From Alcaligenaceae bacterium (GTDB lineage: Bacteria > Pseudomonadota > Gammaproteobacteria > Burkholderiales > Burkholderiaceae_B), in contig JAKDMO010000002.1 of the NCBI GenBank assembly GCA_030452305.1, positions 1 to 44,079 on the forward strand: DNA of 44,079 nt, in the 5' to 3' direction. Within the stretch, counting starts at the first letter, position 1. Each line of letters starts with the position of its first letter. Shown piece by piece: positions 22,944 to 38,484 of the stretch. The notes below the pieces were generated by a model. The model was not told where the DNA came from and made no database searches. It was given only the letters and a program-made list of their open reading frames with translations. A program made the translations under genes and the position numbers.

Positions 22944-23888
22944 TCAGTGTGCGGCGGCACGCCGGCGCGCCAGGTCTCGACACACCGCCTCGGCTGCGTC
23001 GATCATGCGTGGGCCGGGGCGGTGCAGCCAGTCGGGATCGATGGCGTAGACGTGACCCTGGACGGCGGCGGGCAGGCGTAGGCGGCGCCAGTATCCGGCC
23101 AGTTCGTCCAGGGTCTCCCAACCGTATGGCGAGACGATCACCACATCGGGTTGATCGCGCAGCACGCTTTCCGCATTGATCTGCGGCGCAGCCACCAGGC
23201 GGTCGCCGTACAGGTTCACTGCGCCGCAGCGCGCCAGCAAATCATTGATCAGCGGATCCCTGCCCAAGGTATAGAGCGGATCGGCGCTGACTTCGATGAA
23301 TACCGTCAGCGTGCGGTGGCCGGGATCGAGGGCATTGATGCGCGCCTGCAGGGCATCGGCTTTTGCCGAGGCAATCGGCGCGGTGCCGAGTTTTGCGCCC
23401 AGGCGCCGGATGGCCTTGGGGATATCCGGCAACGATTGTGGGGCCTCGTAGAGGATGGGTACGCCCAGCGGCGCCACCAGTGCGGCCAGCGCCCGGATGG
23501 CGTTCGAGGCTTGCCAAGCCACCAGCAGATCGGGGTTCAAAGCCAGGATCGACTCGACATTGAGCTGGATGCCGTCGCCCACGCGTGGAATGGCGCGTGC
23601 GGCGGCGGGATAATCGCTGGAAACCACTGTGCCCACAATATTGTCGCCCGCCCCGGCGGCAAAGACCAGTTCCGTGGCACTGGGGGCCAGGGTAATGATG
23701 CGCAGGGGATGGGTGGGCGTGGCGTTCACCAAGGCGTCGCCGGCCTGGGCAGGCAGGGCGGCGAGCCCGCACGAAGCAGCCAGGATGATCAGCCTGGCCC
23801 AGCGGCGGGCTGCCCTGGTCAGTGCTGCAATTGACCCGATCGTCCCTGCAGCCCGGCCACTGCCGCATCCCGTGATCCGCGTGCGCAT
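22944..23888 (-). CDS. btuF: Periplasmic cobalamin-binding protein BtuF-like
   Basis: A 314-residue class III periplasmic binding protein. A long basic N-region and a signal peptide end near ALPAQAGD (about residue 50). The mature part has IITLAPSATELVFAAGAGDNIVG, VESILALNPDLLVAW and the glutamate-bearing PQINAESVLRDQPDVVIV, matching BtuF and related corrinoid or siderophore binders. It starts four bases after btuB and is led by the cobalamin riboswitch, which argues for vitamin B12 as ligand. The permease and ATPase genes btuC and btuD are not adjacent. Confidence 0.87.
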   Translation of the reverse strand: MRTRITGCGSGRAAGTIGSIAALTRAARRWARLIILAASCGLAALPAQAGDALVNATPTHPLRIITLAPSATELVFAAGAGDNIVGTVVSSDYPAAARAIPRVGDGIQLNVESILALNPDLLVAWQASNAIRALAALVAPLGVPILYEAPQSLPDIPKAIRRLGAKLGTAPIASAKADALQARINALDPGHRTLTVFIEVSADPLYTLGRDPLINDLLARCGAVNLYGDRLVAAPQINAESVLRDQPDVVIVSPYGWETLDELAGYWRRLRLPAAVQGHVYAIDPDWLHRPGPRMIDAAEAVCRDLARRRAAAH

Positions 23889-23892
23889 GGGC

Positions 23893-25761
23893 CTACATCC
23901 GCCAGGACAGGTTCACGAAGACATTCGAACCTGGTGTGTTGTATCCGGTGTTCAGCACATAGTCCTTGTCCAGGATATTGTTCCAGCGCACCTGCACACC
24001 CAGGTTCTTGTTGAAATCGTACGCGGCGGTCAGGTTGACCAGCGAGAACCCGCCCAGTGAGACCTTGTTGGCTGCGTCCACGTAGCGGCTGCCGGTGTAC
24101 TGGTACTCGGCGCCCAGGGTCAGTGCCTGGATGCGGTGTTCCACGCTCAGATGGTAGACCTGTCGCGCCCGACGCACCAGTTGCGAGCCTTCACCCGGTT
24201 TTGGGTCGTCATTCCGGGGATCCAGAAAGTCGGCGCTGGCCCGCAGGCTGGTGTTGCCGAAATTGTGTTCGCCCGTCAGGGTCGCTCCCTGCAGCGTGGC
24301 GTGCCCGGTATTGCTGGTGGTGCATGGAAAGCTGCTGCAATCAAATATATTGATCAAGTCTTCGACGCGGTTCCTGTAGACCGTCAGGCCCAGGCGTGTC
24401 GTTCCTGACTGATATTTGGCGTGGGCTTCGATGTTTCGCGATTTTTCTGGTTTCAGGTCCGGGTTGCCCTGGAAGAAACCGTCGAACGGGTAGTACAGAT
24501 CATTGAAGGTGGGCGCGTGGAATCCGGTATTCGCACCGACGCCGATTTGCCATGCTCGATTCAGGTCGAGGTCCAACCCCACGCTGCCCGTGGTCTGGTT
24601 GCCGTAGCCTGTGATGTGATCGTTGCGCACGCTGGCCTGGGTATGCAGACGATCCACGCGGCCCTTGTACATCATCGCGACGGCATTGGTGTCGCGTGCA
24701 GTCTGGTCGTATTCAGTGGTGCTCTGGACGCGCTCTTCCAGGCGTTCAACCAGCAGCGATATGCGGTGGTCGGGATGAAGCTGCAGGTTGTTCTGCCAGC
24801 TGAAATTGCGCTTGATGGAATTCGTGGTGCTCTGGTAGGCCCGGTCGTCATAGGCGTCCTTGCTGAAACCGAAACGCAGCACACTTTCCCAGGAATTCGT
24901 GAATTGGTCTGTGCTGGTCAGACTATACGATTGCTGGCGGGTCAGGGCATAGGCATCCGGAATGGAATAGCCGGCATCAAAATCACCGTTGATATAGCCG
25001 TCGTACGCAGTCAGGCCAATATGGTGCCCGGTGGCCCATCGATAGCCCAGGGTGCCGGACCAGGCATGTTGGTGGTAACCATCCCGGTCAGGGTAATAGA
25101 TGAAGTTGCTCTGATTGTCCGAGGTGAAAGGCCGCGTTGCATTGAAGCCCTTGCTGCGGGCGGCGCTGGTTGACAGGCTGTAGTCCCACCCGGCACCGGC
25201 GCCCGACAGACCTGCGCTGGACTTGACGGTTTCGTCTGTGCCGTAGCCAAAATTTGCCCAGGCCGACAAAGGCCGGTCCTGTTCGCCTTTCCGCGTGATG
25301 ATGTTGATCACCCCGCCTATGGCGTCCGAACCGTACAGGCTGCTGGCCGCGCCACGCAGGATCTCGATCCGCTCGATCATCGCCGGGTCGATGGCCGGGA
25401 AATGTATGGTGCCATTGGTTGAGCCATTGGCGCGCATGCCGTCGATCAGTACCAGCGTGTGCTGGGAATTGGTGCCGCGCATGAAAATGGTGGTGGTGGT
25501 TTGCAGCCCGCCGCTGGGGACGAACTGGACACCTGGCTGGCGTGCCAGGATTTCCGCGAGGCTGTCCGCGCCGGCGGCCTGCAGTTCCTGCGGCCCGACG
25601 ACGGTAATATCGCCCACGACGTCGCTCAGGGCTTCGGGCGTGCGGCTGGCGGTGACGACAATGTCGCTCAGGGTCTGGACGGCGGGGTTCTGGGCGGTAG
25701 CGGCCAGGGGAAGGGTGAACAGGGTGGCGGCGAGCGTGCGCCGCATACAGATGGGGGGCAT
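23893..25761 (-). CDS. btuB: TonB-dependent vitamin B12 receptor BtuB
   Basis: An outer-membrane TonB-dependent transporter. It has 622 residues from the ATG at 25761, with an AGGA seven bases upstream. A signal peptide (LAATLFTLPLAATAQ) leads to a TonB-box region SDIVVTASRTPEAL, a plug with GVQFVPSGG, MRGTNSQHTLVLIDG and GSDAIGGVINIITR, and a beta-barrel ending NLSWRM. Total length is close to E. coli BtuB. The identity rests on the cobalamin riboswitch in its leader and on btuF four bases downstream. Without those, a siderophore receptor would be possible. Confidence 0.92.
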   Translation of the reverse strand: MPPICMRRTLAATLFTLPLAATAQNPAVQTLSDIVVTASRTPEALSDVVGDITVVGPQELQAAGADSLAEILARQPGVQFVPSGGLQTTTTIFMRGTNSQHTLVLIDGMRANGSTNGTIHFPAIDPAMIERIEILRGAASSLYGSDAIGGVINIITRKGEQDRPLSAWANFGYGTDETVKSSAGLSGAGAGWDYSLSTSAARSKGFNATRPFTSDNQSNFIYYPDRDGYHQHAWSGTLGYRWATGHHIGLTAYDGYINGDFDAGYSIPDAYALTRQQSYSLTSTDQFTNSWESVLRFGFSKDAYDDRAYQSTTNSIKRNFSWQNNLQLHPDHRISLLVERLEERVQSTTEYDQTARDTNAVAMMYKGRVDRLHTQASVRNDHITGYGNQTTGSVGLDLDLNRAWQIGVGANTGFHAPTFNDLYYPFDGFFQGNPDLKPEKSRNIEAHAKYQSGTTRLGLTVYRNRVEDLINIFDCSSFPCTTSNTGHATLQGATLTGEHNFGNTSLRASADFLDPRNDDPKPGEGSQLVRRARQVYHLSVEHRIQALTLGAEYQYTGSRYVDAANKVSLGGFSLVNLTAAYDFNKNLGVQVRWNNILDKDYVLNTGYNTPGSNVFVNLSWRM

Positions 25762-25775
25762 GATGGATCCTGTAG

Positions 25776-25795
25776 GGCGTGCGTCCCCGCACGCC
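25776..25795 (-). promoter_or_regulatory. 8-bp hairpin just upstream of the btuB ribosome binding site
   Basis: On the minus strand GGCGTGCG and CGCACGCC form a perfect stem with a GGGA loop, ending five bases before the AGGA of btuB and 15 bases before its ATG. It is well placed to be part of the riboswitch expression platform that controls ribosome access, though no alternative pairing partner was worked out. Confidence 0.45.
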
Positions 25796-25884
25796 GTAAA
25801 GCGAAAGTCATTCCTGTCGTGCGCGGCGGTACGCCAATGGTGCGCGCGATGTCGCGGCTCGCACCCAGGAATGGGCCAGGTTCG

Positions 25885-26040
25885 AAGCAGGCCGGTGTCG
25901 GGCTGACATGCGGGGCATGCGTACCGTTGCGGGGGCAGCACAGTTTGGGCGCAGGGCCTTGGAAATCGCCAAGGCATGCGTCACTGTTTCCCATTTGACT
26001 TTTGCGTCCGGGGCCTGTGTCAGACCCGGTCAAAAGCACC
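25885..26040 (-). ncRNA. Cobalamin (AdoCbl) riboswitch
   Basis: Reading the minus strand from 26040, the leader has the ordered conserved blocks of the cobalamin aptamer: GGTGCTTTTGACCGGG at the 5' side, AATGGGAAACAGTGA in the middle, GTGCTGCCCCCGCAACGGTA (about 25940-25921) as the core, and GTCAGCCCGACACCGGCCTGC (25907-25887) as the B12-box end. It lies about 125 bases before btuB. Known cobalamin riboswitches lower expression of uptake genes when B12 is plentiful. The boundaries are approximate. The 367-bp btuB-metH gap is otherwise leader and promoter sequence. Confidence 0.93.
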
Positions 26041-26092
26041 TGTTTCGTTGCGGAATATATCACAGGCCCACAGGACCATCCCCTATGGGCGA

Positions 26093-26098
26093 TACAAT
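26093..26098 (+). promoter_or_regulatory. metH: Likely -10 element of metH
   Basis: TACAAT lies 30 bases upstream of the GTG start of metH and matches the sigma-70 -10 consensus in five of six positions. No good -35 is seen at 16-18 bases. It is just upstream of the divergent riboswitch leader, so both transcripts start within about 90 bp. Confidence 0.35.
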
Positions 26099-26128
26099 GG
26101 CGGGGTCAATTTTCCCTGGGCTGCGTCC

Positions 26129-29100
26129 GTGTCTTATCCTGCTTTACCTTATCCGATCGAATCTTATTCTCGCGGGGCGGATTTCGTCCGCCTGCTGACG
26201 CAGCGTATTGTGGTGCTGGATGGGGCGATGGGCACCATGATCCAGCAGCACAAACTGAGCGAAGCGGATTTCCGGGGCGCGCGCTTTGCCGATCATCCCA
26301 AAGACCTGCGTGGCAACAACGAATTGCTCTCGCTGGTGCGCCCGGACATCATCCGCGACATCCATCGTGGCTACCTGGATGCGGGCGCCGATGTGATCGA
26401 GGCCAATACCTTTGGCGCGACACGCATCGCCCAGGGCGACTACGATTTGCAGGACCTGGCCTACGAGATGAATGTGGCCTCGGCGCGGCTGGCGCGCGAG
26501 GCCTGTGACGCGGTTTCAACGCCCGATCGCCCGCGCTTTGTGGCCGGGGCGCTGGGGCCGCAGCCCAAGACCGCCTCGCTGTCGCCCGACGTCAATGATC
26601 CGGGTGCACGCAATGTGACCTTTGAGGAACTGCGTGTGGCCTATACCGAGCAGCTCAATGGCCTGCTCGATGGTGGCATCGATATCGTGCTGATCGAGAC
26701 CATCTTTGACACCCTGAATGCCAAAGCCGCGATTTTTGCGGTGGAATCGGTCTTTGAGGAACGTGGCGTGCGCCTGCCGGTGATGGTATCGGGTACTGTG
26801 ACCGATGCGTCGGGGCGGATCCTGTCGGGTCAGACCGTCGAGGCCTTCTGGAATTCAGTGCGCCATGCCCGCCCGGTAACGATCGGGCTGAACTGCGCCC
26901 TGGGTGCCGCGCTGATGCGCCCTTATGTCGCGGAATTATCCAAGATCTGCGACACCTATATCAGCGTCTATCCGAATGCGGGCCTGCCCAACCCCATGGC
27001 CGAGACGGGATTTGACGAGACTCCATCGGACACATCGAGCATGCTTGAGGAGTTCGCACGTTCGGGGTTGATCAATGTGGTTGGCGGCTGCTGCGGCACC
27101 ACGCCCGATCACATCCGCGCCATCGTCCAGAAGGTCGCCGACCTGCCGATGCGCACGCCCCCGGTTATCCCGGTTAAAACCCGGCTGTCGGGGCTCGAGC
27201 CTCTGAATTTTGATCGCGAGACCCTGTTCATCAATGTGGGCGAGCGCACCAACGTCACGGGCAGCAAGAAGTTCCTGCGCCTGATCCGCGAGGAAAAGTT
27301 CGACGAAGCCCTGTCGGTCGCCCGCCAACAGGTCGAGAGCGGCGCCCAGATTATCGACGTGAACATGGACGAGGGCATGCTCGATGCGCTGGCCATCATG
27401 CCGCGCTTTTTGAACATGCTGGCCTCCGAGCCCGACATTTCGCGCGTGCCGGTGATGATCGACAGCTCGAAATGGCCTGTGATCGAGGCGGGGCTGCGCT
27501 GCGTGCAGGGTAAATGCGTGGTGAACTCGATCTCGATGAAGGAAGGCGAGGGGCCGTTCATCGAGCAGGCAAAGCTTTGCCGCAAGTACGGCGCAGCCGT
27601 GGTCGTCATGGCCTTCGATACCGAGGGCCAGGCCGATACGCTAGAGCGGCGCAAGACGATCTGTGCACGCGCCTACGACATCCTGGTGAATCAGGTCGGC
27701 TTTCCGCCCGAGGACATCATCTTTGACCCGAACGTGTTTGCGATCGCCACCGGCATCGACGACCACAATCACTATGCCGTCGATTTCATCGAGGCGACGG
27801 GCTGGATCACCGAAAATCTGCCCCATGCCCGCGTGTCGGGCGGAATTTCGAACGTCAGTTTCTCGTTTCGCGGCAACGAAGCCATGCGCGAGGCGATCCA
27901 CGCCGTATTTCTGTATTACGCGGTGCAAAAGGGCCTGACGATGGGCATCGTCAATGCCGGCCAGCTGGGGGTGTATTCCGATCTGGACCCCAAGGTGCGC
28001 GACATGGTCGAGGATGTGGTGCTGGACCGCCCCGAACCCCTGGGGCGTACGGATCCAAAAGACGAGAACACTTCGACCGAGCGTCTGGTCGAACTGGCTG
28101 AATCGATCAAGGGTTCTGGGGCGAAAAAGGAAGAAGACCTGACCTGGCGCGAGGGCACGGTGCGTGAACGCCTGACCCATTCGCTGGTGCACGGCATCAC
28201 CACATTTATCGTTGAGGATACCGAGGAAGTCCGCCAGGAAATCGCCACCGCCGGCGGGCGCCCCATCGAGGTCATCGAGGGGCCGCTGATGGACGGCATG
28301 AATGTCGTGGGCGATTTATTCGGTTCGGGCAAGATGTTCCTGCCGCAGGTCGTGAAGTCCGCGCGGGTCATGAAGCAGGCGGTCGGTCACCTGCTGCCCT
28401 TCATCGAAGAGGAAAAGCGCCTGATCGCCGATGCGGGTGGGGATGTACGCTCCAAGGGCCGGATCGTGATTGCGACCGTCAAGGGCGACGTGCACGACAT
28501 CGGCAAAAACATCGTGACGGTGGTGCTGCAGTGCAATAATTTTGAGGTCTTCAATATGGGGGTGATGGTGCCCTGCTCGAAGATCCTGGAAAAGGCCAAG
28601 GAAGTCAACGCCGACATGGTGGGGCTTTCGGGGCTGATCACACCCAGCCTTGAGGAAATGGCCTATGTCGCCTCAGAGATGCAGCGCGACGACTATTTCC
28701 TGAGCCGCCAATTGCCGTTACTGGTGGGCGGGGCCACGACCAGCCGGGTGCATACTGCCGTGAAGATCGCGCCCAATTATGAGGGTCCGGTGATCTACGT
28801 GCCCGACGCCAGCCGCTCGGTGGGCGTCGCCACCAGCCTGATGTCGGACCAGGCCGCCACCTATCTGAAAGGGGTGGCTGAGGAGTACGAACTGGTGCGC
28901 ACGCGCCATGCGAACCGCAAATCCACACCCATCATCCCGCTGGAGCAGGCCCGCGCCGAGCGGCCGGCCATAGACTGGAGCCAGTACACGCCGCCACGCC
29001 CGAAATTCATTGGCCGGCGCACGTTCAAGCACTATGACCTGAGCGAGATTCTGAAGTTTCTGGACTGGACCCCGTTTTTCCAGACCTGGAGCCTGTTCGG

Positions 29101-29902
29101 TCAGTATCCCGCCATCCTGGATGACAAAGTGGTGGGCGAACAAGCCCGCGAGCTGTTCAAGGAAGGCCAGGAAATGATGAAGCGCGTGATCGACGGGCGC
29201 TGGCTGACGGCCAATGGCGTGGTCGCCTTTTATCCTGCCAACACAGTCAATGGCGACGACATCGAGATCTATCGCGACGAGACGCGCAGCGAGGTGTTGC
29301 TGACCTGGCGCAATGTGCGCCAGCAGACGGCCAAACGCGAAGGCGTGGACAACAAGTGTCTGGCCGACTATATTGCGCCAAAATCCAGCGGCGTCATGGA
29401 CTATATCGGGATGTTTGCGGTCACAGGTGGCATCGGTATCGAAAAGCATGAGGCCATGTTCCAGGAAGCCGGCGACGATTACTCGGTCATTATGTTGAAA
29501 GCTGTGGCTGATCGCCTGGCCGAGGGCTTTGCCGAAACCTTGCATGCCCGCGTGCGACGGGACCTTTGGGGATACGTGCCCGATGAGGCCTTGAGCAATG
29601 AGGAGATCATCGCCGAGAAATACCAGGGCATCCGGCCCGCACCGGGCTATCCTGCCTGCCCGGAGCACGTGGTCAAGCGCGAAATGTTCCGGATTCTGGA
29701 ATGCGACGATATCCAGATGCAGTTGACCGAGGGTTATGCCATGTACCCGGCCTCCAGCGTCTGCGGCTTCTACCTCAGTCACCCGAAGTCCCAGTATTTC
29801 AATGTGGGCAATATCGGTCCCGATCAGGTGGCGGACTATGTGCAGCGCAGCGGGCGCGACGAGGAAGACGTGCGTCGCACACTGGCGAGCACCCTGCGTT
29901 AG
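26129..29902 (+). CDS. metH: Cobalamin-dependent methionine synthase
   Basis: Transfers a methyl group from methyltetrahydrofolate to homocysteine through methylcobalamin. It has 1257 residues from a GTG start at 26129 (VSYPALPYP); no in-frame ATG is suitably placed. Domains in order: homocysteine-binding (about 20-340) with zinc cysteines in IGLNCALGA and [11 protein letters not shown]; pterin-binding (365-640) with [13 protein letters not shown]; cobalamin cap and Rossmann domains with the axial histidine in [13 protein letters not shown] (about 784-796); and the SAM-activation domain with [12 protein letters not shown]. It is full-length and diverges from the riboswitch-led B12 uptake operon. 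Confidence 0.97.
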
Positions 29903-31569: not shown

Positions 31570-32850
31570 TCAGCCTCGGAACTGATAGCGTTCCAGCGAT
31601 TCGCGTTTCATTTCGATCGAGTAGCCTGGCTGCGTGGGGGGCATGTACGCAGCATTTCGGATCTGGCACGGATCGACAAAGTGTTCGTGCAAGTGGTCGA
31701 CGTATTCAACCACCCGACCTTCTTTGGTGCCGGCAATGCACACGTAGTCGATCATCGACAGATGCTGGACGTACTCGCACAGGCCGACCCCGCCGGCATG
31801 CGGGCACACCTTCAGGCCATACTTGGCCGCCATCAGCATGACTGTCAGCACCTCGTTGACCCCCCCCAGGCGGCAGGCGTCGATCTGGACGATGTCTACT
31901 GCGGATTCCATGATCAGCTGCTTGAACATGATGCGGTTCTGGCACATTTCACCGGTAGCGACCTCCATGCGGCCCAACATCGCTTGCCGGATGTGGCGGT
32001 GGCCGGCGATATCGTCGGGGCTGGTGGGCTCTTCGATGAACCATGGCCGGGAAAAAGCCAGTTCTTCGAGCCATGGCACCGCCTGCTTGACCTCCCAGAC
32101 CTGATTCGCGTCGATCATCAGGTGGCGGTCCGGGCCGAGTGCTTCGCGTGCGATGCGTACCCGACGGATGTCGTCCTGCAAGTCGCGTCCGACCTTGAGC
32201 TTGATATGGGAAAAGCCGTCGGCCACCGCCTGTTTGGCCAATGTGCGCAGCTTGTCGTCGCTGTAGCCCAGCCAGCCTGCCGATGTGGTGTAGCAGGGGT
32301 AGCCGTGCTTTTCCAGATCCTCGATCCGCTGCCCCTTGTCGGGGGCTCGTTCCCGCAGCAGTTGCAAGGCTTCCTCGGGGGTGATGCAGTCGGTGATGTA
32401 GCGAAAGTCGATCAGTGCGACGATCTGTTCCGGGCTCATGTCTGCCACGAGACGCCACACTGGTTTGCCCTCGGCTTTGGCCCAGAGATCCCAGACCGCA
32501 TTGACCAGTGCCGCAGTAGCCAGGTGAATAGCGCCTTTGTCCGGCCCAATCCAGCGTAGTTGGCTGTCGGATGTGATGTGATGCCAGAACCTGCCCATGT
32601 CTTCGGTGATCCAGTCGAGATCCAGGCCGATCAGCAGGTGCTTCATGGCGTGGATGGCGGTACAGCAAATTTCAGTACCGCGCCCGATCGTGAAGGTCAG
32701 CCCGTGACCTTCCAGCGCCGGAGTATCCGTATGCAGGATGGCATAGGCCGCCGAGTAATCGGGGTCCGGATTCATGGCATCCGAACCATCCAGCATTTTG
32801 GATGTGGGAAAGCGCACATCTATGACTTCGATGGATTGGATAATAGTCAT
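31570..32850 (-). CDS. L-fuconate dehydratase (enolase superfamily)
   Basis: A 426-residue mandelate racemase/enolase-superfamily dehydratase. The N-terminal cap shows DVRFPTSKMLDGSDAMNPDP and QLRWIGPDKGAIH, almost identical to the Xanthomonas FucD I recall. The barrel carries the KxK acid/base motif HIKLKVG, metal ligands in MIDANQVW, FIEEPTSPDD and ATGEMCQNR, and the catalytic histidine in CPHAGGVGLCE. FucD enzymes dehydrate L-fuconate and also accept L-galactonate, D-arabinonate and D-altronate. It lies two bases after the FAH-fold hydrolase. One difference is GEM where I recall GEH in the third metal motif. Confidence 0.92.
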   Translation of the reverse strand: MTIIQSIEVIDVRFPTSKMLDGSDAMNPDPDYSAAYAILHTDTPALEGHGLTFTIGRGTEICCTAIHAMKHLLIGLDLDWITEDMGRFWHHITSDSQLRWIGPDKGAIHLATAALVNAVWDLWAKAEGKPVWRLVADMSPEQIVALIDFRYITDCITPEEALQLLRERAPDKGQRIEDLEKHGYPCYTTSAGWLGYSDDKLRTLAKQAVADGFSHIKLKVGRDLQDDIRRVRIAREALGPDRHLMIDANQVWEVKQAVPWLEELAFSRPWFIEEPTSPDDIAGHRHIRQAMLGRMEVATGEMCQNRIMFKQLIMESAVDIVQIDACRLGGVNEVLTVMLMAAKYGLKVCPHAGGVGLCEYVQHLSMIDYVCIAGTKEGRVVEYVDHLHEHFVDPCQIRNAAYMPPTQPGYSIEMKRESLERYQFRG

Positions 32851-32852
32851 GG

Positions 32853-33695
32853 TCAGGCTTGTATGGTTTTCTGGGTCTGTTCGCCCAGGCCCTCGATACC
32901 CAGGCGCATGGTCTGCCCTGCCCGCAGGTAGACGGGCGGTTTTTGGCCCAGGCCCACGCCCGGCGGGGTGCCGGTCGAAATGACGTCGCCAGGCTGCAGG
33001 CTCATGAAACGGCTGAGATAGCTGATGATTTGTGGCACGGAAAAAATCATGGTCTCGGTAGATCCGTTCTGATAGCGCTTGTCATCGACTTCCAGCCATA
33101 GGGCGAGCTTGCCGGGGTTCGGTACCTCGTCGGGTGTCACCAGCCAGGGGCCGATCGGGCCGAAGGTGTCGCAGCCCTTGCCCTTGTCCCAGCTGCCGCC
33201 CCGCTCCAGTTGATACTCCCGTTCAGATACATCATTGATCACGCAGTATCCAGCCACATGATCTAGTGCCTGAGCCTCGTCAATGTAGCGGCCGCCCTGG
33301 CCGATCACGACCCCGAGTTCGACCTCCCAGTCGGTTTTGACGGAGCCCCGGGGGATTTCGACATCGTCGTTAGGGCCAATAACGGCGCTGGTCCATTTAT
33401 TGAATATTATGGGTTCCTTTGGGATTTCGGCACCCGTTTCCGCAGCGTGATCGGCATAGTTCAAACCGATGCAGATGAATTTTCCGATCCCGCCCACACA
33501 CGCGCCGATGCGCGGATCACCCTCAACCAACGGCAGTGTGCCGGTGTCCAGCGCGCGCAGGGTAGACAGACCCTGCGGTGTCAGGACATCGCCGGCGATG
33601 TCGGCGATTTTTCCAGAGAGATCGCGGATGCGGCCTTCGGTATCCAATATTGCGGGCCGCTCCTGGCCCTTGGGTCCTACGCGTAGCAATTTCAT
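32853..33695 (-). CDS. FAH-family 2,4-diketo-3-deoxy-L-fuconate hydrolase (probable)
   Basis: A 280-residue fumarylacetoacetate-hydrolase-fold protein. Visible are the family core GKFICIGLNYADHAAETGAEIP, the metal-binding acids in KTDWEVELGVVIG, NDVSEREYQ and DVISTGTPPGVGLG. In the non-phosphorylated fucose/rhamnose pathways an enzyme of this family cleaves the 2,4-diketo-3-deoxy acid to pyruvate and lactate (or glycolate for other chains). The assignment rests on fold plus position between the dehydratase and the dehydrogenase. Automated annotation might call it ureidoglycolate lyase, which the context does not support. Confidence 0.82.
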   Translation of the reverse strand: MKLLRVGPKGQERPAILDTEGRIRDLSGKIADIAGDVLTPQGLSTLRALDTGTLPLVEGDPRIGACVGGIGKFICIGLNYADHAAETGAEIPKEPIIFNKWTSAVIGPNDDVEIPRGSVKTDWEVELGVVIGQGGRYIDEAQALDHVAGYCVINDVSEREYQLERGGSWDKGKGCDTFGPIGPWLVTPDEVPNPGKLALWLEVDDKRYQNGSTETMIFSVPQIISYLSRFMSLQPGDVISTGTPPGVGLGQKPPVYLRAGQTMRLGIEGLGEQTQKTIQA

Positions 33696-33736: not shown

Positions 33737-34525
<789 letters not shown>

Positions 34526-34610: not shown

Positions 34611-35423
34611 TTACTTTCCTTCGGCCAGAACTTCTTGTGGCAAATCAGTGCCGTGGAATTTCTTGAAAATGGTGTTCAGTTTGCCATTGGCCAGGTTCTT
34701 GCGGACCAGCTCGTTGATTTTTTCCAATAGCTCCGGGTTGTTCTTGGCGACGCCCAGGCCCATCATGGCCGTGGCCATAACGACTTTGGTCTCCAGCGGA
34801 TTGTCACCGAGGTTTTTGTTCAGAGACGCGATGATCGACGGGGCGCCCGAGAATATGTGGGCTCGCCCACTGGTGACGGCCGTGATTGCGGTGGCATCAT
34901 TTTCGAAGCGCACGATATTCGTGCCGGCCGGCGCCAGGCGCGTCACGTTGGCGTCGTTGGTGGTGCCACGTGCCGTGACTACGGTCTTGCCTGCCAGATC
35001 TTCCATTGTCTTGATGTCCTCATCCTTGGGTGCGGCAATCACCGACTGGATGGCGGCATAGGGAATGGAGAAATCAACGACTTCCTGGCGCTTCGGGGTG
35101 ATCGACAGGCTGGAAATCACGACATCCGCCTTATTGGTCAGCAGGAACGGGATACGGTTGGCCTGCGTGGTGGGCACGATTTCGAGTTTGACACCCAGGT
35201 CTTTGGCGAAGAGCCGGGCCGTCTCGACGTCGGAACCCGTTTCGTGCAGATTGGCATCCTTCATGCCGTAGGGTGGGGCGTTCAGGTCGACGGCAACACG
35301 CAATGTTTTTGCCTGCTCGACCTGGGCGAGGGTATTTGCATATGCCGGTGCCTGTGCGGCGAAGATTGTTGCAGCTGTCATGGCCAAAATGGCCATGCCG
35401 CGGTTCAAACGCAAGTGTGTCAT
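34611..35423 (-). CDS. Family 3 solute-binding protein of ABC transporter
   Basis: A 270-residue periplasmic binding protein of the polar amino acid type. From the ATG at 35423 (AGGAG nine bases upstream) a signal peptide ends near AQAPAYANT. The core has LRVAVDLNAPPYG, VVISSLSITPKRQEVVDFS (R112 equals the carboxylate-binding Arg of HisJ) and RGTTND (153-158). The segment that in HisJ holds the ammonium-binding Asp aligns here with SGRAHIFSGAP, placing Ala194 at that site. So the ligand probably has a carboxylate but no alpha-amino group, consistent with a sugar acid. The alignment is from memory. Confidence 0.9.
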   Translation of the reverse strand: MTHLRLNRGMAILAMTAATIFAAQAPAYANTLAQVEQAKTLRVAVDLNAPPYGMKDANLHETGSDVETARLFAKDLGVKLEIVPTTQANRIPFLLTNKADVVISSLSITPKRQEVVDFSIPYAAIQSVIAAPKDEDIKTMEDLAGKTVVTARGTTNDANVTRLAPAGTNIVRFENDATAITAVTSGRAHIFSGAPSIIASLNKNLGDNPLETKVVMATAMMGLGVAKNNPELLEKINELVRKNLANGKLNTIFKKFHGTDLPQEVLAEGK

Positions 35424-35474
35424 GTCGTGTCTCCTGTCGAAATAGTGAGATTCGTGTCTCATTCGTCGGGTGGG

Positions 35475-36209
35475 TCAAAGTCCGTTGCTGACGAATTGCT
35501 CCAGCTCCGGGGTTTTCGGATTACGCAGGATGCCTGCGTCGCCCTGCTCGTGAATCCTGCCTTCGTGCATAAAGATGACGCGGTGTGCAAGTTTCATTGC
35601 GAAGCCCATTTCGTGGGTGACCAGCACCATGGTCATGCCGCCTGCGGCGAGTTTTTCGATGACGCGCAGGACCTCACCCGTCAACTGCGGGTCGAGGGCC
35701 GAGGTTATTTCGTCGAACAGCATGAGTTGGGGGTCCATGGCCAGAGAGCGCGCGATGGCCACGCGCTGTTGCTGTCCGCCGGACAACTGTTCGGGGTAGA
35801 AGCCGATTTTGTCGCTCAGGCCCACTTGTGCCAGGACATCAGCCGCGATGGTTTTTGCCTTCGGTGCTGCGAGTTTGCGCACCGACCGTGGCGCCAAAGT
35901 GATGTTCTGCTCGACAGTCAGGTGCGGAAACAGGTTGTAGCTCTGGAATACGATGCCCACATCCCGCCGCAACTGCTTGAGGGCCTGGCGCTCGATGTCT
36001 TTGCCGAAAGTCAGGCCACACACCGTGATCTCGCCCTCGTTGATGGTTTCCAGGTGGTCGATGCAGCGCAAGGCCGTGCTCTTGCCCGAGCCGCTTTGCC
36101 CGATTATGGCAACGATCTCGCCTTTTCGGACGTTTAGATCCACGCCCTTGAGGACATGGTTGTCACCGAACCACTTGTGTACATTATTCAGACGGACGAC
36201 TTCTGTCAT
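35475..36209 (-). CDS. ABC transporter ATP-binding protein, polar amino acid type
   Basis: A 244-residue ATPase of the GlnQ/HisP group: Walker A GQSGSGKSTALRC (about 37-49), Q-loop GIVFQSYNLFPHLT, signature LSGGQQQRVAIARSL, Walker B LMLFDEITSALDPQL and switch LVTHEMGFA. It sits between the permease genes and the binding protein in a four-gene transporter operon, 13 bp from the upstream permease. The specificity is set by the binding protein. Confidence 0.95.
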   Translation of the reverse strand: MTEVVRLNNVHKWFGDNHVLKGVDLNVRKGEIVAIIGQSGSGKSTALRCIDHLETINEGEITVCGLTFGKDIERQALKQLRRDVGIVFQSYNLFPHLTVEQNITLAPRSVRKLAAPKAKTIAADVLAQVGLSDKIGFYPEQLSGGQQQRVAIARSLAMDPQLMLFDEITSALDPQLTGEVLRVIEKLAAGGMTMVLVTHEMGFAMKLAHRVIFMHEGRIHEQGDAGILRNPKTPELEQFVSNGL

Positions 36210-36222
36210 GGGGTTCCTTGAT

Positions 36223-36870
36223 CTAGCCGCGTGCCAGCGCCAGCTTGCGTTCCAGCCTGAGGCTGAACCAGGATAGTGGGTAGCAGATGATGAAATAGAG
36301 CACCGCTGCGACGCCGAAATACAGGAAAGGCTTGAACGTGGAGTTGTTCAGGATCTTGGCGTTATAGGAAAGCTCTGCAAAACCAATCACCAGCGACGCG
36401 AATGAGGTGTTCTTGACGATCTGGACCATGAAACCCACGGTGGGCGGTGTAGCGATGCGCAGCGCCTGGGGCAGGATCACCTTGAACATGCGCTGCACGC
36501 GATTGAGGCCGAGGCATTCTGCGGCCTCCCACTGGTTTCTGGGCACAGATTCGATGCAACCGCGCCAGATTTCTCCGAGGAAGGCAGCCGCATGGATCGT
36601 AAGTGCCAGAACTGCAGCGAACAGTGCCGAGGTACCGGAAAACCCGAAGATTGAGGGCCCATAAAAGCAGATGCCCATGATCACCAGCAGGGGCGTGCCC
36701 TGGATGATGTTGATGTAACCGAAAGCACTGCCTCGCACGACGCGCTTGTCCGACACCCGCATCAATGCGACGGTCAGCCCCAGCATTGCCGAGAATACGA
36801 AGGTCAGCACTGATAACAGCAAGGTACCCCAGGCGCCTGCCAGCAGATAAAGGATTTGCTCGTGATTCAT
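36223..36870 (-). CDS. ABC transporter permease, HisM/GlnP family (second)
   Basis: A 215-residue inner-membrane permease from the ATG at 36870. It has about five hydrophobic helices and the EAA loop WEAAECLGLNRVQRMFKVILPQA that contacts the ATPase. IQGTPLLVIMGICFYG is the conserved motif of the HisM/GlnP group. The frame extends upstream into the other permease gene and this ATG is chosen because it follows that stop by 11 bp and gives a normal N-terminus (MNHEQILYLLAGAWGTLLLS). Confidence 0.93.
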   Translation of the reverse strand: MNHEQILYLLAGAWGTLLLSVLTFVFSAMLGLTVALMRVSDKRVVRGSAFGYINIIQGTPLLVIMGICFYGPSIFGFSGTSALFAAVLALTIHAAAFLGEIWRGCIESVPRNQWEAAECLGLNRVQRMFKVILPQALRIATPPTVGFMVQIVKNTSFASLVIGFAELSYNAKILNNSTFKPFLYFGVAAVLYFIICYPLSWFSLRLERKLALARG

Positions 36871-36881
36871 GGCCTTGTCTC

Positions 36882-37565
36882 CTACAGCAGGGTGCCGAGC
36901 CTGCGCTTGCGCACAAACAGCACTTTTCCAGCCATGGTGAATGCGCCGCGCACGAGCACGGACATCGCGAGGTAGATGACCCACAGCACGATGAAGACTT
37001 CAAAATTACGGAAGGTGAGCGCCTGGATATTGCCCGAAACCCCGAATAAATCCTCTGCGCCAACCGCCGACAGGAGGCTGGTGACCAGCATCAGTAATAC
37101 GAACTGGCTGGTCAGGGCGGGATAGACACGCTCGAGCGCCGGTACCAGGATGATGTGCCAGTAGACCTGCAAGGGCGACAGGCCCAGGCACTCGCCCGCC
37201 TCGCGCTGGCTGCGCGGCACGGACTCGATACCGGCCCGAACGATTTCGCAGGTGTAGGCCGTGACGTTGATGACCAAGGCCAGTATTGCCCCGGTGAAGA
37301 TCGACATTGTGAGGCCTACGCTGGACAGCCCAAAAATCAGGAAGTAACTCTGGATAATCAGGGGGGTGTTGCGGATAATTTCCACATACACGCCCACCGT
37401 GCGGCTGAGCAGCGGGCCACCCGAGCTACGGGCAATGGCGCAAGCCACGCCCATCCCAACCCCTGCCAGGGTGGACCAGAACGACATCAGCAGCGTGGTC
37501 TCGATGCCCTGCAGCAGCATGGGCCAGTATTCCAGCACTGAGCCAAAATCGAATTGGTACGTCAT
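36882..37565 (-). CDS. ABC transporter permease, HisM/GlnP family (first)
   Basis: A 227-residue permease, the first gene of the minus-strand sugar-acid operon. It begins MTYQFDFGSVLEYWPMLLQGIETTLLMS and contains IRNTPLIIQSYFLIFG and the EAA loop REAGECLGLSPLQVYWHIILVPA. I start at the ATG at 37565. An in-frame ATG 13 codons upstream lies about where the transcript should begin and has no Shine-Dalgarno. Two different permeases imply a heterodimeric channel as in HisQM. Confidence 0.93.
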   Translation of the reverse strand: MTYQFDFGSVLEYWPMLLQGIETTLLMSFWSTLAGVGMGVACAIARSSGGPLLSRTVGVYVEIIRNTPLIIQSYFLIFGLSSVGLTMSIFTGAILALVINVTAYTCEIVRAGIESVPRSQREAGECLGLSPLQVYWHIILVPALERVYPALTSQFVLLMLVTSLLSAVGAEDLFGVSGNIQALTFRNFEVFIVLWVIYLAMSVLVRGAFTMAGKVLFVRKRRLGTLL

Positions 37566-37604
37566 CTCTTGGAACCTGTCCTGTGATCGAAAGGTCGAGT
37601 GCAT

Positions 37605-37632
37605 AGATTAACTGGACAGACCGGTAAAACCA
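37605..37632 (-). promoter_or_regulatory. Promoter of the transporter-catabolic operon with operator copy 1
   Basis: On the minus strand TGGTTT (37632-37627) and TAATCT (37610-37605) are spaced by 16 bases as -35 and -10. The spacer is filled by an operator motif, read on the plus strand as TGGACAGACCGGTAAA (37613-37628), containing the near-palindrome GGACAGACC. The predicted transcript start, near 37598, leaves a leader of about 33 bases before the permease. Confidence 0.6.
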
Positions 37633-37653: not shown

Positions 37654-37682
37654 TTGCTTTACCGGTCAGACCAAATTAGAAT
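37654..37682 (+). promoter_or_regulatory. Promoter of gntR-uxaA with operator copy 2
   Basis: TTGCTT (37654-37659) and TAGAAT (37677-37682) are separated by exactly 17 bases, a good sigma-70 promoter. The spacer holds the perfect palindrome GGTCAGACC (37664-37672). On the minus strand this copy reads TGGTCTGACCGGTAAA (37673-37658), the same motif as copy 1 with two changes, in inverted orientation. The centres of the two copies are 50 bp apart. Confidence 0.65.
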
Positions 37683-37722: not shown

Positions 37723-38484
37723 ATGGAAAAGACCAATGCTTCGCTGCAACAACTGGATCGTGCACGCGGATATATGCACATTGCGGATGCGCTGAGACAG
37801 GAAATCCGCAAGATGGACACCGCCACTGGTGCGCGCTTGCCTTCCGAGCGCGAGCTGGCACAACTGCTCAAGGTGTCCAGGCCCAGCTTGCGTGAAGCGT
37901 TGATCGTGCTGGAACTGCAGGGCGAGATCGAGATCCGTGTCGGCTCGGGTATCTACCTCAAGCATATCGCCCCCACAGGGGGGGCAAACGCCAAGACGCC
38001 GGCATCGACCGTAGATCCCGGGATCGAAGCTTCCCTGATGGGGCACAGCCCGAGGGATGTCAATCAGACACGCTTTTTCCTGGAGAGTGGGGTCGCCGCC
38101 TATGCGGCACGGTTCATCAACCGCGAGCAACTCAAGGCTCTGGCAGCCAGCGTTGCAGCTATGCGCAAGGCTCTTGGCATGCGCAGCCGTGCCGGTGATA
38201 AACCACTTGCTGAGGCCGACCGTCAATTTCACGTCACCCTGGCATCAACTGCGGATAACCGCTTGCTGACTCAAACGCTGGAAGAGTTGTTCGATCAGCG
38301 CTATACCCCGATTGGCGGATCCATGCATCGACTGTTTGATAATCAGGCGGTCTGGCAGGATGCCGTGCAGGAGCACCAGGATATCTACGAGGCGGTTGCT
38401 GATCGTGACCCTTTGCAGGCCCAGGCCGCCATGCAGCGCCACCTTACCCGGGCCCACATCCGCCTGATGGCCGTGATTGGCTAG
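37723..38484 (+). CDS. FadR-type GntR-family transcriptional regulator
   Basis: A 253-residue regulator. The N-terminal winged helix has LPSERELAQLLKVSRPSLREALIVLELQG (about 39-68) and the wing IEIRVGSGIYL. The C-terminal FCD all-helical ligand domain (about 110-245) has FHVTLASTADNRLL and EHQDIYEAVADRD, with the metal/ligand histidines expected of FCD. FCD regulators commonly sense sugar acids or other carboxylates. The gene is divergent from the transporter operon and cotranscribed with uxaA. The paired motif in its promoter fits the GGTCnGACC half-site pattern of the FadR group, so self-regulation and control of both operons are likely. Confidence 0.92.
   Translation: MEKTNASLQQLDRARGYMHIADALRQEIRKMDTATGARLPSERELAQLLKVSRPSLREALIVLELQGEIEIRVGSGIYLKHIAPTGGANAKTPASTVDPGIEASLMGHSPRDVNQTRFFLESGVAAYAARFINREQLKALAASVAAMRKALGMRSRAGDKPLAEADRQFHVTLASTADNRLLTQTLEELFDQRYTPIGGSMHRLFDNQAVWQDAVQEHQDIYEAVADRDPLQAQAAMQRHLTRAHIRLMAVIG

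Follow-up and report, generated by a model that had tools for sequence, protein, structure and literature searches.

The protein encoded at 34611-35423 on the minus strand of the DNA analysed here (a stretch of 44,079 nucleotides, hereafter the window, from a draft genome of 2.79 Mb in 339 contigs) is probably the periplasmic receptor of an ABC importer for an aldonate, a sugar acid. Judged from sequence, its most likely ligand would be L-fuconate or a related acid that shares its C2-C4 configuration (L-galactonate, D-arabinonate or D-altronate), held in a rebuilt pocket, and we give L-fuconate itself about an even chance of being the main ligand. We favour an aldonate because L-fuconate-type enzymes are encoded next door and because the clade to which the receptor belongs is associated with sugar-acid genes. 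Many relatives that carry the label of amino-acid transporters may import sugar acids too. The features on which the argument draws are as follows.

31570-32850, minus strand: enolase-superfamily dehydratase, probable L-fuconate dehydratase (FucC/FucD type), from matches to 2hne and 4ip4
32853-33695, minus strand: FAH-family hydrolase, probable L-2,4-diketo-3-deoxyfuconate/rhamnonate hydrolase (FucG), from NF053535 and 8gsr
33737-34510, minus strand: SDR dehydrogenase, probable L-2-keto-3-deoxyfuconate 4-dehydrogenase (FucF), 342 bits to 8y11/8xwk, L-KDFDH of Herbaspirillum huttiense
34611-35423, minus strand: family-3 solute-binding protein, 270 aa, or 283 aa with a start at 35462 (PF00497, HisJ-column mapping, AlphaFold2)
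34842-34844, minus strand: codon of A207 of the receptor (283-aa numbering)
35088-35090, minus strand: codon of R125 of the receptor (283-aa numbering)
35475-36209, minus strand: ABC ATP-binding subunit of amino-acid type (GlnQ-like), PF00005; best NCBIfam model GlnQ, 287.1 bits, below its cut-off of 379
36223-36870, minus strand: ABC permease 1, PF00528, TIGR01726 over cut-off; start set by eye, the mechanical reading frame extending to 36984
36882-37604, minus strand: ABC permease 2, PF00528, TIGR01726 over cut-off
37622-37632, no strand assigned: operator-like site 1, CGGTAAAACCA, in the divergent promoter
37663-37673, no strand assigned: operator-like site 2, CGGTCAGACCA, 41 bp from site 1
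37723-38484, plus strand: GntR/FCD regulator, divergent from the transporter operon, PF07729 and PF00392
38527-40047, plus strand: UxaA/GarD-type dehydratase (altronate/galactarate dehydratase family), 506 aa, PF20629, PF04295 and PF08666

The genes for the SDR, the FAH hydrolase and the enolase-superfamily enzyme thus lie downstream of the receptor gene on the same strand, those for the ATPase and the permeases upstream, and the regulator and the UxaA/GarD-type dehydratase are divergent. Elsewhere in the window, 22944-29902 holds a Peripla_BP_2 protein (22944-23888), a TonB-dependent receptor (23893-25977) and a B12-dependent methionine synthase (25976-29902, 1308 aa), which together may form a set for cobalamin uptake.

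The family assignment of the receptor is straightforward, with 120.7 bits to PF00497 (SBP_bac_3) over a Pfam gathering cut-off of 26.4. Its longest reading frame opens at ATG 35462 and gives 283 aa; the ATG at 35423, which gives 270 aa, looks the better start, because AGGAG stands just 5' of it and a signal-peptide-like stretch, recognised by eye, follows it. Residue numbers below are those of the 283-aa form and exceed those of the initial annotation by 13. That annotation had described a retained carboxylate arginine (R112, in ITPKR), a retained GTT loop and an alanine, Ala194, where the second binding site of HisJ-type proteins has aspartate, and all three descriptions are borne out when the protein is aligned by MAFFT with HisJ, ArgT, GlnH and TcyJ from the E. 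coli K-12 record: R125 falls in the column of HisJ R77, T167 and T168 form the GTT loop, and A207 falls in the column of HisJ D161, with GRAHIFSGAPS in the window protein against GRIDAAFQDEV. By the yardstick of HisJ and LAO, the arginine for the carboxylate is therefore present and the aspartate for the ammonium group is not. Pairwise alignment with AncQR likewise puts Ala at the Asp161 place, and alignment with AncCDT-1, shifted by one residue, puts Gly there, an acid appearing in neither. We can set aside an alignment slip or chance as the source of the alanine, which is fixed in the aligned orthologues (17 of 17 rows of at least 63% identity, 16 of them distinct, the window included), while the shifted AncCDT-1 pairing yields no acid either.

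The AlphaFold2 model of the receptor (mean pLDDT 85.4) places residue 207 between strand 203-206 and helix 208-218, a break that we take to be set as in the HisJ structure. The model matches HisJ (1hsl) with Z 25.9 and 2.1 Å over 229 residues and LAO (1lst) with Z 26.9. SocA ranks close to the top with Z 28.1, and no single match stands out, adjacent Z values being tied. A D161A mutant structure of LAO (6mla) is also among the fold matches, and a literature search returned no paper naming D161A among the matches listed. Among the best 60 of 81 profile-search matches no solved relative inside the clade was recognised, the top match being AncCDT-1, described as an amino-acid-binding ancestor. 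Against the NCBIfam model for Lys/Arg/Orn receptors, TIGR01096, the window protein scores 131.4 bits, below the cut-off of 256.35. The accessible part of PMC5740067 tabulates 16 binding-site positions of LAO, 15 of which can be read in the window protein (191 being a gap). Seven are kept (Asp11, Ser69, Ser70, Ser72, Arg77, Ser92 and Thr121) and eight are replaced (Tyr14 by Ala, Phe17 by Tyr, Phe52 by Gln, Ala90 by Ile, Leu117 by Ala, Ser120 by Thr, Gln122 by Asn and Asp161 by Ala). In the 17 orthologue rows, 12 of the 15 readable columns are invariant; columns 72 (S/T), 90 (I/N) and 92 (S/A) vary.

How much weight can be placed on the missing aspartate? In six related genomes we retrieved and aligned every family-3 match at E 1e-15 or better together with its surroundings, 101 places in all. 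The Arg77 equivalent is present in 101 of 101 proteins; column 161 is acidic in 50, non-acidic in 50 and unaligned in one. Since half of the 100 aligned proteins have no acid there, the loss of Asp161 says little when taken alone. Some of these proteins have ligands of the kind that the initial annotation predicted, a carboxylate without an amino group: two EhuB-type proteins that we scanned, one of them (L144) in the genome of the window, have Thr at column 161 and pass the ectoine equivalog TIGR02995, L144 with 284.8 bits, and the window receptor reaches 45.8 bits against a cut-off of 190.9. Ectoine carries a carboxylate and no free alpha-amino group. The same loss has been published for NocT and OccJ. 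According to the portions of PMC4192606 and PMC5740067 available to us, NocT, with Ser207 at the place of Asp161, shows no arginine binding; according to the corresponding portion of PMC5740067, OccJ, with Asn202 there, has micromolar affinity for arginine, lysine and ornithine, and its N202D variant is close to wild type.

A dehydratase or hydrolase marker was found near 12 of 50 non-acid receptors and 2 of 50 acid receptors in the six genomes (p ~0.008). We tried the missing Asp as a general sugar-acid marker on this basis and rejected it: all 12 cases fall within the clade of the window protein, and the 27 non-acid receptors outside that clade have none. The signal thus belongs to the clade and not to the missing residue. 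The prediction of a ligand with a carboxylate and without an amino group accordingly stands in part. The operon, the neighbours of the relatives and the parallel with EhuB speak for it; the rule by which it had been reached, no Asp and hence no amino group, is weak by itself, because half of the family-3 proteins in the six genomes and 27 non-clade proteins without sugar-acid markers also have no acid, and because OccJ binds basic amino acids with Asn in that position.

What sets the clade apart is a group of residues in lobe II. We aligned 97 proteins, of which 80 rows have at least 34% identity to the window protein; seven incomplete or weaker matches with less than 70% query coverage had been dropped earlier, among them the two incomplete orthologues L108 and L109, and the truncated receptor of L014 was also left unaligned. 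Asp or Glu at column 161 occurs in 0 of the 80 rows (34-100% identity, 79 distinct, the window included). Arg at column 118 (R165) and Arg at column 139 (R185) are each present in 80/80, Asp at column 123 (D170) in 79/80, and Asp or Glu at column 143 (D189) in 73/80. In the six genomes, the residues at columns 118, 139, 123 and 143 are found in 100%, 100%, 100% and 87% of 23 clade members against 4%, 5%, 4% and 3% of 78 others, the clade being delimited at 150 BLAST bits to the window protein, a limit chosen after the table was seen; two proteins just under it have Lys at column 118. A maximum-likelihood tree places the window protein within starred groups of 5, 17 and 21 rows, and a clade profile found a match at E 1e-60 or better in 13 of 150 sampled genomes of the order, the window's own included. 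We lean, by a modest measure, towards regarding the clade as a dedicated family of sugar-acid importers with GlnPQ-type ABC parts, whose members in Beta- and Alphaproteobacteria bear the annotation of amino-acid importers. The family would have originated from amino-acid receptors that retained the carboxylate site, lost the ammonium Asp and acquired the signature in fixed form. With the same modest confidence, and jointly with that reading, we propose as its diagnostic an Arg before the GTT loop, an Asp after it, an Arg at the strand before helix 189 and no Asp161.

The enzymes encoded around the receptor point to the route by which an imported acid might be used. The enolase-superfamily dehydratase scores 541 bits to L-fuconate dehydratase 2hne over residues 4-424 and 671 bits to 4ip4. 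The SDR matches 8y11/8xwk, which the available text of PMC11199699 identifies as L-2-keto-3-deoxyfuconate 4-dehydrogenase; when it is aligned to 8xwk, with the offset counted by hand, R151, R195 and R217 match the three substrate arginines of L-KDFDH, Arg148, Arg192 and Arg214, which according to the same source text read the carboxylate, the C2-OH and O5. By homology, then, the operon has the dehydratase and the three-arginine L-KDFDH of a putative L-fuconate (FucC-FucF-FucG) operon. The FAH hydrolase scores 318.2 bits to 8gsr, an L-2,4-diketo-3-deoxyrhamnonate hydrolase, and 424.6 bits to NF053535, below the cut-off of 500, a shortfall that is indecisive for a fuconate enzyme because the model describes the rhamnonate enzyme. 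The UxaA/GarD-type dehydratase scores 399.9 bits to TIGR03248, below its cut-off of 730.85, and 324.6 bits to GarD 6u7l. Among ten proteins put through a domain scan, none but the L-KDFDH-like SDR falls in a recognised sugar dehydrogenase or lactonase family, a result in keeping with import of the acid as such. A Halomonas locus with the late steps and without the first ones has been read in a similar way, as using L-fuconate itself (PMC5507952, in the part available).

The association with such enzymes extends over the clade. We looked within 6 kb of each receptor in the six genomes for homologues of the window's UxaA-type, enolase or FAH proteins; of the 23 receptors in the clade 12 had one, as did 2 of the 77 outside it (Fisher p ~9e-8, uncorrected for shared descent and with the one unaligned row left out), the two non-clade cases being weak matches of 28% and 32% identity. 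When four close orthologues and a further gene from the locus of an orthologue are left out, the counts become 7/18 and 2/77 (p ~8e-5, again uncorrected for shared descent). With seven markers they are 16/23 and 3/77, the four added ones (IlvD/EDD, DUF1537-type SBD kinase, RuBisCO-like protein and PfkB) having been chosen after the clade loci were seen. On the other side of the account, no window-type enzyme lies within 6 kb of 11 of the 23 clade members, and 7 of these have none of the seven markers; one clade member, L122, has an enoyl-CoA hydratase nearby that is not obviously a sugar-acid enzyme. For L112, L115 and several other loci the greedy gene calls were poor, and the neighbours there come from marker BLAST only.

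Several loci have layouts of their own. In L117 (5421-10374) the neighbours of a clade receptor are a RuBisCO-like protein and a kinase gene of the DUF1537 type (SBD_N/NBD_C), a combination reminiscent of pathways for four- and five-carbon acid sugars. L081 (7310-8131) and L082 (11735-12556) each have a second clade receptor (~40% identity) next to the FAH gene, within the locus that also encodes the orthologue of the window receptor. In L092-L094 the receptors are 63-66% identical to the window's, no permease match was found, which counts against an importer, and there are at most distant ATPase matches (~9.6 kb each); these receptors are possibly sensors or borrowers of another transporter. 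L092 also has a short second receptor-like piece. In L014 (9362-10369, Castellaniella sp. S9; L120 has the same layout) an apparent internal deletion joins permease 2 in frame to the C-terminal part of the receptor. The L014 cluster has thereby no ATPase, permease 1 or N-terminal receptor lobe, and no match to a UxaA-type gene was found in it; the enolase, FAH, SDR and GntR genes remain. The gap is either a real deletion or an assembly collapse.

The clade also reaches alphaproteobacterial plasmids, where its members are annotated under amino-acid transport. A tblastn search of plasmid records matched 651, all below 60% identity. From the 25 listed we examined 10, chosen to spread organisms, of which 9 are annotated, and read 11 receptor genes, leaving out a third gene of the Sinorhizobium record (L262) and a cut gene of L265. 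Arg stands at columns 118 and 139 in 11 of 11, and 10 of 11 have no acid at column 161, Bosea having Glu. Seven of the nine annotated loci have permeases named 'amino acid ABC transporter' right next to the receptor. Beside it are an altronate dehydratase and an FAH protein in Variovorax; an altronate dehydratase, a mannitol-dehydrogenase-family enzyme and a sugar kinase in Diaphorobacter; enolase-superfamily enzymes in Bradyrhizobium, Roseomonas and Bosea; and RpiB with an oxidoreductase in Pararhizobium, Microvirga and Paracoccus, two of these three also having a ribokinase/PfkB gene. Less plainly linked to sugar acids are a betaine transporter and a dipeptidase that the Pararhizobium receptor (L261) has nearby as well, and the aldehyde and Ldh-family dehydrogenases of the Sinorhizobium locus, which has no dehydratase.

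It is possible, if less probable, that the physiological ligand is another aldonate or aldarate (L-galactonate, D-arabinonate, D-altronate or galactarate) and not L-fuconate. In one genus (L084-L088 and L108) the UxaA-type enzyme is the only such enzyme nearby, and L084-L088 keep the receptor, the ABC genes, the GntR regulator and the UxaA-type gene with no enolase, FAH or L-KDFDH-like SDR close by. According to the part of PMC6336799 that we could consult, the UxaA/GarD-family enzyme of H. huttiense takes several acids with a common C2-C4 configuration, D-arabinonate best and also D-altronate, L-fuconate and L-galactonate. Against this, the enolase, SDR and FAH proteins of the window match enzymes for deoxy-sugar acids.

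We think it unlikely that the receptor still binds an amino acid or amine, with D189 or D59 as a displaced acid, or else serines and the main chain, gripping its ammonium group. Such a scenario could call on D189, kept in the clade (D/E in 73/80) and rare elsewhere, on S117, S118 and S120, all of them retained, and on the basic amino acids bound by OccJ. It has to contend with the loss of Tyr14 and Phe52, with the fact that the sole acid at the 15 readable LAO positions is D59, which is common to HisJ and LAO (position 143, that of D189, lies outside the table), and with the operon, where the domain scan showed no amino-acid enzyme family. Still more improbable is uptake of an opine-like or sugar-amino conjugate in the manner of NocT, OccJ and SocA: NocT and OccJ have also lost Asp161 and SocA is close in fold, but the window protein has Ala and Gln in place of the Tyr and Trp that clamp the arginine part, and the domain scan recognised no opine-catabolic gene in the operon. 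We give equally little credence to uptake of neutral L-fucose or its lactone, oxidised before the operon enzymes act; the enzymes do belong to a non-phosphorylating L-fucose route (PMC11199699, in the text available), ABC systems for L-fucose have been predicted in other fuc loci (PMC5507952, in the part available) and four amidohydrolase-2 proteins elsewhere in the genome (G000) would allow a distant lactonase, yet the carboxylate Arg and GTT loop are kept and the scanned operon proteins include no recognised fucose dehydrogenase or lactonase. RbsD/FucU was found in 0 of 6 genomes of the genus searched, a weak argument because the mutarotase of the route may belong to another family.

Let us assume, then, that the receptor binds an aldonate. 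The carboxylate would be held as in HisJ by R125 of lobe I, the GTT loop (T167 and T168) and S120, and A207, at the place of the Asp161 ammonium clamp, might leave room for the C2 hydroxyl. With the clamps for an amino-acid side chain exchanged (Tyr14 for A62, Phe52 for Q100, Leu117 for A164, Gln122 for N169), small and polar residues together with D59 and N102 would meet a chain of hydroxyls, and the clade-only R165, D170, R185 and D189 would rebuild lobe II. From the closed receptor the acid would move on to both permeases and their ATPase. Once in the cell, it would lose water through the enolase-type enzyme, the UxaA-type enzyme or both, the SDR would then oxidise the product, and cleavage by the FAH hydrolase would yield pyruvate and L-lactate.

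Both arms are probably under the control of the GntR/FCD regulator, acting at the two sites of the divergent promoter, a view that we draw from sequence patterns. Permease 2 and the GntR gene are separated by 118 bp, and both sites lie in this interval; they have the form [CT]GGTNNNACC[AG], which we take to resemble GntR/FadR-type operators. With the pattern widened after the window's sites were seen, site pairs occur in 13 of 15 promoter stretches examined and a single site in the other two loci; the pattern occurs four times in the whole window and at 0.07 per kb over all loci. Spacing within a pair is 40-41 bp in the window and in four further loci from its genus, against 50-51 bp in eight loci of other genera, a difference of about one helical turn.

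If the clade does import aldonates, many genes now called 'amino-acid ABC transporter' are mislabelled, transporter gaps in sugar-acid pathways gain candidates, and one residue signature would let annotators separate sugar-acid from amino-acid importers. The clade would also offer a natural case of a pocket that changes its ligand class with its carboxylate anchor retained.

Lastly, the proposed system can be set beside those already described. With HisJ and LAO (ArgT) the window receptor shares the fold, the carboxylate Arg77, Ser69, Ser70 and Ser72, a GTT-type loop and Asp11; unlike them it has Ala for Asp161, Ala for Tyr14, Gln for Phe52, Ala for Leu117 and Asn for Gln122, together with the clade-only R165, D170 and R185. 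NocT and OccJ resemble it in having lost Asp161 naturally within the same fold, with arginine binding lost or weakened (PMC4192606 and PMC5740067, in the parts available); they differ in that a Tyr and a Trp still serve as clamps for the arginine part, along with a Gln, and in their ligands, which are arginine conjugates. EhuB is likewise a family-3 receptor without the acid, but it has an equivalog of its own, TIGR02995, which the window receptor misses. Our search of the open-licence literature found no account of sugar acids or fuconate being imported by an ABC system of the family-3 or amino-acid type, and in the part of PMC5507952 available to us the reconstruction assigns sugar-acid uptake, that of L-fuconate and L-galactonate for example, to TRAP and TTT systems. 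One TRAP receptor, from Chromohalobacter salexigens, has dual specificity for L-fuconate and L-galactonate (PMC5507952, in the same part, citing Vetting et al. 2015); it has the ligands that we propose here and a locus with fuconate/galactonate enzymes, and belongs to a different transporter class and receptor family. The closest counterpart on the side of metabolism is the non-phosphorylating L-fucose pathway of H. huttiense. The window operon differs from it in having no recognised FucA or FucB gene and an importer of the amino-acid ABC type, and agrees with it in the dehydratase, the L-KDFDH-type SDR and the FAH hydrolase (FucC, FucF and FucG). Genes of the FucC/FucF/FucG type often cluster with genes for putative ABC-type sugar transporters (PMC6336799, in the part available).
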